DNA of 64,000 nt from Litomosoides sigmodontis (lineage: Eukaryota > Nematoda > Chromadorea > Rhabditida > Onchocercidae). The translations under genes were made by a program, and so were the position numbers. This document shows, piece after piece, positions 27,963 through 30,900 of the stretch; the first letter of the stretch is position 1, and each line of letters opens with the position of its first letter. The notes beneath the pieces were generated by a model. The model worked only from the letters and a program-made list of their open reading frames with translations, did no database searches and was not told the DNA's origin. The DNA lies in contig OY718806.1 of NCBI GenBank assembly GCA_963070105.1, positions 8,722,365 to 8,786,364 on the forward strand, written 5' to 3'.

Positions 27963-30900
27963 TCACATTTTGATCGCTGTTGAAGGAGATGGAGATGGTG
28001 AACGAAGCTGCAGACGCTGTCTAATTGAGCCTCGGCGCTTATTTGCCTCAAAAAATTGCTTTAAATCTTGAACACGACGCTGTTTCTCGGCATGCATACC
28101 GTCAATTGGATTCCAATCAAGATTGTTCGATTCCTCGTCTTCATCCTCACTGACAACAACCCAATCGGATACCGACTGATAGGCTGATGATCGCCGTCCT
28201 TTCAGTGATGTTTCCCGCACCAGTCGTTCCTTCTTGCGTGAACTTCCTAACTGACCTTTCTGCCTTTTGCGAATCTTAATTATTTAATTTAATTATAACG
28301 GTAGTGGTGCGATTTGTTGTTTGTTGTTGCAGAACTGATAAATTTGAAATAATGATTAGTTAGTGATGGAAGAGAAAATTTCCATACTATTGGGTCAGTC
28401 TGCATTTCACTTTCTATCATTTCCACAGATGGCTTCTCAACAAGTTCATCCGCGTCAGTTTGAGTAATAGCTTCTAAGACATCGTATAAATGAGTTTGAA
28501 TTTCCTGTTCAATTAATCTAATATCATTCGTTTGTACATCACGTGCCTATAATTCATTATCAATTAACGGTTAAATATAAATTTAATAATATTTAGCATT
28601 AAAGTTCTATTTAAAATAAACTTAATAAGACGTAAATCGGAAATTTTCCTTTTCACAAAGCATCCATCCACACTAATGTTCTATACCTTCAATTTGTAGA
28701 AGTAAATTCTATCTTTATCATCAAATTTTCAAATAAAATCAATTCTTGAAAATATAAATAGAAATAAGTAAGGCATCAATAACTCTTCTAACACGTTTAA
28801 ACGCTCAGCACTCTCAATAATGTAAGAAAAAAAATAAGAAACCGTATATTCAGGGATAACCGTAATGCATTCACTATCTTTCAATTCAACTACTTCAGTC
28901 TGCATGATACTATGAGTGATAATTGGATTACACGATTGCACCGCTTCCTCAACCAATTCATTAATTAAAGGATCAGTTACGATGGCTGTATCCACTAGTG
29001 TCACCATCAATGTTTGCTCGCCTTTGTCATCACTAAAAATACTTCCCATTTGATATTTCATCAATTATAATCTAAAATAATCAACGTGAAAGAAAAAACT
29101 TTTTATGCAATAATTTATACGTAAGTATATGCATACCTTATCACTTACTTTGTAAGCTGAACAATTACTTACAATGATAAAAGAGAAGTTTGCACAGCCA
29201 TATCATAGAAAACTGTTTTTGGAAGTGGCAGATCAGTTGACGGCTGAGTTGGTGCATTGAGCTTCTCATCGTCAAGATGTTCTTGAATTGCTTCTTTCAC
29301 GGTAGCCGCTAGCATTTCCTCATTGATCTCGTCAAAGAGTAGCTTCGGCATACCCGTTTCTTCGTCAATATTTGAGAAGATTGGTGGAATTTCAATTCCA
29401 CAAGCTTCGGCATCTTTTTGTACTTTCGTTAACACCGATGCTTGTCTATTCTTGCTCCAAAATAGAACGTTCACAAAAATTAGAGTAACAGAATCAAGTT
29501 AAACTAAGACGATTATTTCAACTAGCTGCTAACTTTAATAATTAAATTTATTGAGTCAAAATTTTATAAAATGAAAAAAGGAATAAAAAATTTTAGTTTC
29601 TTTTATTAATGATTATTTTAGAATTTTTCACTGTCAAATTTTACTAAACGGTTTGTATTCCTCTTTTGGCTTTTTACGATAAAATACATTGTTTAATTGA
29701 TAGTTGAGGAATTTTTAAATTCTATACTTTATTGCAAATAAATCATTGCGTATATCGAAAATCACCTTAGGAGTGATATCAAATATTTGGCTTTTTTGTT
29801 ATTGTTCCACATTTGCACCATACCTGCAGACGCTCCAACTTTATCATTTCCTTGAAAAAAAATGCAGCAATTAAAGAGTTGAAACTAAAAATTATCGTAT
29901 TAATATTTGAATATCGTGATTGTCTAATCATGCATTTAATTACCTACGTTCATAGGAGAGAAAACAATTGATTTTCACACGAAGACTTGTAAAATTAGTT
30001 TCTACTTGTAGGATCATTCATTGAATTATCAACTAATTCCCTCATTTCAGAAGCATCCTGATATTACGACTTACCTTGACTTAATTTAGACTGATATTCA
30101 AGGAATAATTTCAAAAAAACTTTAATGTAAAAATCTTCTAATGCTGTCTGGATAACATTGATGCACATACTGACCATTGCAAGACCGATTATCACAAAAA
30201 CAAAACACATTGTCATCAAACTGCAAAAGGCTCCCATTGTAAATATGATAGGGGAAAAATTGAAATAAAAATTCTGTAATTTTTTAAATACTAATTTCTA
30301 ATGAAGTCTGGACGACCATTGAAATCGGCGTTATTTGAGCTGAAATTAACAAAAGATTGTGCACATTCCAACAATTAGATTTGAAAAAGGCGCTCACAAT
30401 AATAGTCGATATTTGAAAATGAAAACTTACTCTCGCCGTCCCACGGCAAGATCGCCTAATCCAATTGTTGACAAACTGAAATAAAATTTCGTGTGGAAAA
30501 ATTTTACTTGCCAAGAAGAATTTCTGATTGTGTTGAGAAAAATAACATTTTCGTGCTATGTGATGATTAAGTGCTCAAAAGTTTTGCTAACAGTATCCGC
30601 GCACTATCCGACGCTTCAAATGCAATTGAATTACAAGTGCAGTAAATGAAAATGCCTAATGAACATGAAGTAGCAGCTTTCTGCGTAAGTCCAATTGCGC
30701 TCCCAGATTTTGAAAAGTCCAGCACAGAGGAATATCCAACTGAATGTAATTCCGATCGCTAGAAGTACGGGTATTCGAAGTGACTGATTAGGTTTGCTCA
30801 ACATCATAACGTCAACATTTTCTTTCATTGAATCTATAATTGTTGAACTCAAAATTTTACTAGTTTAAAAAATGTCAAATTTTACATCATCATTTCACAT

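Follow-up and report, generated by a model that had tools for sequence, protein, structure and literature searches.

The window analysed here is a stretch of 64,000 nucleotides from the nematode Litomosoides sigmodontis (assembly GCA_963070105.1, contig OY718806.1, positions 8,722,365 to 8,786,364 of the forward strand). It contains a gene for a two-pore-domain potassium (K2P) channel, probably of the twk-8 type, and the cytoplasmic tail of this channel carries an array of short, regularly spaced motifs built around a glutamine-threonine (QT) core (Table 1). A preliminary description of the same DNA had noticed most of these motifs and had likened them to docking sites for the dynein light chain LC8.

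The channel gene and its relatives

Pfam Ion_trans_2 (PF07885) matches the channel in two stretches (E-value 2.2e-32), and the pore filters read from the translation are GYGD and GLGD. The annotated orthologue of Brugia malayi (P0003) and the 793-residue model are identical at 563 of 803 positions (70%) and match across the exon joins, among them the two tail joins proposed in the preliminary description (29032-28843 and 28546-28388). A start of exon 7 at 29445, which yields a protein of 790 residues and thus three fewer, was rejected. The start at 29454 is preferred because P0003 retains the residues SKN added by the longer exon and matches over the joins. The 790-residue model was used for the Pfam assignment, the paralogue search, the first homologue search, one alignment and the QT statistics, and it differs from the final model only upstream of the array. 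A further Pfam match, to Cytokin_check_N at residues 594-646, was dropped with 12.5 bits versus a cut-off of 22.6.

The best homologue matches came from Wuchereria, Brugia and Loa, and all 49 relatives (P0001-P0049) are nematodes wherever the organism is stated. Names of the twk-8 kind occur in Dirofilaria (BMA-TWK-8), Pristionchus (twk-8) and Aphelenchus (TWK-8 a), whereas the relatives from Toxocara and Anisakis are annotated as 'TWiK 18'. The Caenorhabditis elegans match (P0027, 755 residues) bears no twk name in its record, and we take it to be TWK-8 on the basis of its relationship rather than of a tree. In searches limited to proteins of similar length, the array was not found outside K2P channels, and 49 of 49 protein-search matches have a potassium-channel domain. 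Foldseek returned K2P channels throughout the 50 matches listed out of 466. When the genome (65.9 Mb, seven contigs) was searched for paralogues of the tail, with only the best candidates scored, none was found elsewhere, all six matches being exons of the channel gene itself.

The second pore filter is encoded by an exon of only 45 bases (30475-30431), which follows an intron with a GC donor (30655). At this exon, the Toxocara model P0016 is without exactly 15 residues present in P0012, the Thelazia model P0013 is likewise without them, and the Onchocerca (P0007) and Elaeophora (P0009) models have extra residues. The absence of the 15 residues could stem either from an error common to these annotations or from splicing that omits the second filter.

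Table 1 Features of the K2P channel gene and of its tail array, in window coordinates; Q, V and I with numbers denote the central anchor residue in the 793-residue model.
Feature	Position	Strand	Remarks
K2P channel gene, probably twk-8 type	27963-37956	-	10 coding exons, 793 residues; single open frame
Exons 1-5	37956-37320, 31411-31064, 30833-30656, 30475-30431, 30220-30075	-	
Exons 6-10	29850-29766, 29454-29173, 29032-28843, 28546-28388, 28274-27963	-	
Unit 1, YDMAVQTS, Q568	29184-29207	-	Site conserved in alignments
Unit 2, DDKGEQTL, Q580	29008-29031	-	Q and T invariant across all 25 aligned orthologues (C. elegans 540/541)
Unit 3, degenerate, AIVTD, IVT anchor, V592	28972-28995	-	Absent from the preliminary description
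Unit 4, VEEAVQSC, Q606	28930-28953	-	AVQC in Brugia and Loa
Unit 5, THSIMQTE, Q618	28894-28917	-	
Unit 6, degenerate, ECITV, CIT anchor, I630	28858-28881	-	Absent from the preliminary description
Unit 7, TARDVQTN, Q642	28526-28845	-	Across exon 8/9 junction (28845-28843 and 28546-28526); residue order same in Brugia P0003
Unit 8, IEQEIQTH, Q654	28490-28513	-	Worst score of the seven QT sites
Unit 9, LEAITQTD, Q666	28454-28477	-	Among the three best-scoring sites
Unit 10, IESEMQTD, Q686	28394-28417	-	20 residues beyond unit 9
Conserved segment downstream of array, 25 residues	28047-28121	-	Block conserved in nematode alignments

Regularity and conservation of the array

The array comprises ten units, and their anchors follow one another at intervals of 12, 12, 14, 12, 12, 12, 12, 12 and 20 residues in the 793-residue model. 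The seven QT motifs and the AVQS near-match listed in the preliminary description occupy exactly the residues given there (units 1, 2, 4, 5 and 7 to 10). Its count of four gaps of 12 residues and one of 24 between neighbours is correct, and the outer limits it gave for the array are good to a few bases, the outermost octamers reaching 29207 and 28394. The counterpart of unit 3 is VQT or CQT in C. elegans, Haemonchus and Plectus, and that of unit 6 is VMT in Toxocara and Anisakis and TMT in C. elegans. The interval between units 9 and 10 is divided into 12 + 12 residues by one extra unit in Toxocara and Setaria, and the larger step between units 3 and 4, usually of 14-15 residues, recurs across nematodes.

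The QT statistics, the anchor listing and the motif scoring are based on 22 tails, approximately one per genus. They were selected from the 40 usable tails provided by the window and 48 relatives, 49 sequences in all; the other nine sequences gave none, and Wuchereria and Ancylostoma were usable but omitted. The tail in the window contains seven QT, with 1.17 expected and a maximum of five among 2000 residue shuffles, and three of its QT pairs lie at a lag of 12 residues (P = 0.0004, random placement, 100,000 draws). Pooled over the 22 tails, 93 QT pairs occur at lag 12 versus 10.4 (standard deviation 3.0) by chance and a maximum of 23 in 2000 random placements, and lags 24, 36 and 48 are likewise raised. 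In five of these tails (P0003, P0007, P0009, P0013 and P0014), the QT count was no higher than in the highest shuffle. From its first to its last Q[TC], the array of the window measures 118 residues; of the 23 rows listed, 15 fall within 116-124. The eight outlying rows include 89 residues in Thelazia, 110 in Pristionchus, 129 in Diploscapter, 145 in P0011, and longer spans; the longest arise because QT off the lattice were counted, and the span of 124 in Elaeophora also includes one off-lattice QT.

The array is retained in filariae, ascaridids, C. elegans and its relatives, Aphelenchus, Steinernema and Plectus. In C. elegans it has eleven units, with gaps of 12, 12, 14, 12, 12, 12, 12, 11, 11 and 12 residues; in Plectus, QT is present in every one of eleven units (residues 610 to 733); and P0011 possesses additional 12-residue units with VQC. 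To assess conservation, 25 relatives were chosen by hand from the 48 and aligned without the window. Within the array (C. elegans residues 516-659), each of the 17 columns with at least 90% identity holds an anchor Q or T, and this result was unchanged at 20 rows, after removal of four Caenorhabditis and one Steinernema sequence. The mean identity was 0.887 at anchor positions versus 0.430 in the other array columns, values that MAFFT may have inflated by aligning QT repeats onto one another, whereas the lag count is independent of any alignment. Conservation of the QT cores above their surroundings, which the preliminary description had named as the pattern that would support its proposal, is therefore what the alignment contains. 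Within 27900-29500, the sole find of Tandem Repeats Finder was a 16-base TTTGTTG run; there is thus no DNA tandem repeat that would mark the array as a recent DNA expansion. The repeat is old, and its anchors are what persisted.

Four of the anchors lie in exon 9, which is 159 bases long and has phase 0 at either end. The Anisakis model P0017 is without 55 array residues that are present in P0014, and the Toxocara model P0016 is without 30 relative to P0012. The length of the array may be set by splicing, through the choice of exon 9, or the gene models may simply differ. Beyond the array, the segment at 28047-28121 near the channel C-terminus is strongly conserved and is preceded by a basic stretch in C. 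elegans and its relatives; it looks like a candidate second binding site.

LC8 as putative partner, rival explanations and further features

We consider it probable that the tail, predicted to be disordered, is a multivalent array for LC8 (DYNLL, or DLC-1 in C. elegans), on which LC8 dimers bound in register would zip both tails of the channel into a rod. According to published rules (PMC6607443), QT forms positions 0 and +1 of an LC8 peptide and is preferably preceded by a mid-sized residue at -1 and by a polar one, for example D, at -4, and followed by P, D or E at +2. The flanks of the 188 QT in the 22 tails follow these preferences, with D/E at -4 in 124, I/V/T at -1 in 106 and D/E/P at +2 in 111, and the resemblance to LC8 anchors claimed in the preliminary description is borne out in this respect. 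Several anchors of the array that depart from QT coincide with verified LC8 anchors, namely VQC in the LC8 motif of gephyrin (PMC12057147), TMT in myosin Va and fly ASCIZ (PMC6607443, PMC10046861), and VAT and CQT in the C. elegans protein SAO-1 on DLC-1 (PMC9630320, PMC12797016). Serine at position 0 is mentioned for LC8 motifs in the form TST (PMC12057147).

Single sites were scored with a matrix drawing on 33 published binders and 27 non-binders (leave-one-out area under the curve 0.78-0.79). It was built from QT-anchored rows and a few non-QT binders, to the exclusion of all other non-QT rows, a duplicate MUC4 entry, GP1BA (a weak binder) and the shifted bassoon peptide. Array octamers reached a mean score of 7.1 versus 2.3 for random flanks around QT, and 39 of 187 (21%) lay above the lower quartile of the binders versus 2.8% of the random flanks. 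A potential partner is encoded in the same genome, where a canonical LC8 gene with two exons (G000:C2:8568252-8568858) specifies a product identical to a solved dynein light chain 2 at 86 of 89 residues, with three differences over the whole length. In an AlphaFold2 model of P0027 (25 sequences), the predicted local distance difference test (pLDDT) values were about 26-53 over the array, which contained no strands, and mostly 57-85 in the helical channel core. The array motifs are accordingly predicted to sit in a disordered region.

K2P channels are dimers, and two parallel tails would therefore present the same motif twice to each LC8 dimer. An extended residue spans about 0.34 nm and a step of 12 residues thus about 4.1 nm. 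This is near the size of an LC8 bead, which is about 4 nm (PMC5963919). In the mechanism that we propose, the two tails would exit the membrane side by side, LC8 would load the firm sites first, and the weak sites would then fill; pre-paired peptides bind LC8 far more tightly (PMC3078936). Binding in register and one after another, the LC8 dimers would staple the tails into a stiff rod that extends from the channel into the cytoplasm and could reach a length of about 40 nm. This rod might hold the conserved end segment off the membrane, help to hold the channel at the surface, or serve its stability, gating or spacing. We give an even chance to the stricter version of this model, a ruler-like ladder in which as many as ten or eleven LC8 dimers, of ~4 nm and 12 residues each, clamp the tails into a cytoplasmic rod of ~40 nm. 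The preliminary description had suggested that the channel might dimerise through LC8. It would be more fitting to say that LC8 staples the tails of an already dimeric channel.

Several observations weigh against an LC8 array that staples the tails. Among the 187 octamers, 68% scored below the non-binder median (60% with a matrix that also uses the non-binders), although the many TQT in its training set make the matrix harsh on VQT and IQT. Published peptides with IQT, LQT or ITQT nevertheless include several that fail to bind LC8. Since only about a fifth of the single sites score as strong, the array would have to act via multivalency, and we expect each tail to offer two to four firm LC8 sites, besides many weak sites that would fill only through tail pairing. 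Units 3 and 6 (IVT and CIT) have V or I at the Q position, and for these anchors, as for VLT and some others, no verified precedent was found in the LC8 literature consulted. Each array unit consists of an eight-residue motif and a four-residue linker, the same linker length as in SAO-1. In fly ASCIZ, linkers of six and nine residues give uniform complexes and one of 30 residues mixed ones, and a linker of three residues permits off-register species at high LC8 (PMC10046861). By analogy, the linker of the channel would fall between a length at which off-register binding is possible and one at which it is not. Thelazia P0013 is an exception to the conservation of the array and has kept fewer anchors, and the AlphaFold2 model contains a low-confidence helix within the array (C. 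elegans residues 609-623). In addition, TWK-8 is found throughout the muscle cell surface of C. elegans (PMC11164867), and this distribution leaves no special site to be explained by the array.

LC8 might also bind the array but chiefly bridge the tails of separate channel dimers into clusters, as described for 53BP1 oligomers (PMC12187134). Many sites per tail permit off-register pairing, of the kind that the three-residue ASCIZ linker allows, but the tails within one dimer should always be closer to each other than to those of a neighbour. The 12-residue pitch of SAO-1 gives a defined 2:4 complex (PMC9630320), and TWK-8 in C. elegans muscle is described as uniformly distributed (PMC11164867), and we therefore regard such bridging as unlikely. 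It is decidedly unlikely that the array is instead a handle by which LC8, being a dynein light chain, tethers channels to the motor for transport or removal. The dynein intermediate chain binds the same LC8 groove, and two channel tails would occupy both grooves, although dynein-driven retrograde movement is discussed by the authors of the work on the potassium channel Kir4.1 (PMC11999606).

Two further explanations do without LC8. Given that 60-68% of the single sites fall short of the non-binder median and that the linker residues have a pattern of their own, the units could be read by another protein and their likeness to LC8 motifs be coincidental. The anchor, the preferences at -4, -1 and +2, several substitutions and the 12-residue pitch all agree with LC8 data, however, and we know of no other protein that reads this motif, a point on which no search was made; we think this explanation very improbable. 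That the 12-residue repeat folds on itself, for example into a beta-solenoid or beta-roll, would fit the frequent hydrophobic residues at unit positions +4 and +6, but is scarcely credible in view of the low pLDDT values and the lack of strands in the AlphaFold2 model, which comes from a shallow alignment and is not final. A putative LC8 array on paired tails thus remains our preferred reading.

The pattern of the linkers extends over the whole array (28394-29207). V, L or I are common at +4, and L, T, V or I at +6, in the 22 tails, and the LC8 rules consulted do not account for it; perhaps these residues make contacts between adjacent LC8 dimers. Elsewhere in the window, the first intron of the channel gene (5.9 kb) contains a long pure (TA)n run at about 33303-33483. 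By eye only, open frames on the minus strand resemble the C-terminal part of a diverged beta-tubulin (about 51650-52000) and an M16-type mitochondrial processing peptidase (about 41000-43500).

Comparison with known LC8 systems

The titles and abstracts searched, whose coverage does not extend to most subscription journals, contained no description of LC8 in association with a K2P channel, in agreement with the preliminary description, which knew of none. The earliest report that we found of LC8 as an auxiliary protein of a potassium channel dates from 2025 and concerns a single motif in Kir4.1 (KCNJ10). Like the channel in the window, Kir4.1 is a potassium channel with a disordered terminal motif, in this case TQT, through which LC8 is recruited (PMC11999606). 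It differs in having one N-terminal motif and in being a tetrameric inward rectifier. LC8 co-purifies with Kir4.1 at a stoichiometric level; without the LC8 motif the tetramer is less stable and activity is normal, and Kir4.1 purified with LC8 has lost activation by phosphoinositides (PMC11999606). TWIK, TREK, TRAAK, TASK and THIK share the two pore domains and are solved relatives of the channel core. For the array itself, a query of solved structures with the Plectus array gave two chance-level matches (E-values 0.58 and 0.71), and no solved chain matched better than chance.

LC8 ladders themselves are already known, and what appears from the sequence to be new here is that such a ladder would belong to an ion channel and keep an almost uniform pitch. 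In the yeast Nup159-Dyn2 system, as in the channel tail, a row of motifs occupies a disordered stretch, and LC8 dimers stiffen this stretch into a beaded rod; Nup159 is a nucleoporin with five sites. ASCIZ (ATMIN) resembles the array in its seven (fly) or eleven (human) motifs, a mixture of strong and weak sites that includes TMT, but its linkers are irregular (3 to 30 residues in fly) and it is a transcription factor that regulates LC8. If our reading is true, a channel with ten or eleven even sites would, to our knowledge, rank among the most regular LC8 clients. With its chains already paired and its linkers fixed, it would also provide a natural example of a predictable ladder.

C. elegans offers a direct way of testing this, with a fluorescent TWK-8 knock-in line (PMC11164867) and a DLC-1 that has been crystallised with a client. 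That client is SAO-1, residues 182-205 of which form a 2:4 complex with C. elegans DLC-1 (PDB 7y8w; PMC9630320), residues 182-226 binding with a dissociation constant of 0.5 uM (PMC9630320). The SAO-1 anchors, 187-VAT-189 and 199-CQT-201, are centred on residues 188 and 200 (PMC9630320; also PMC12797016), and their pitch of 12 residues therefore equals that of the channel array. SAO-1 differs from the channel in having two sites only and in being an apoptosis-linked GYF-domain protein rather than a membrane channel. It nevertheless combines a nematode LC8 and anchors exactly 12 residues apart in a complex of two parallel chains and two LC8 dimers, the same arrangement that we propose, in a longer form, for the tails of the channel.
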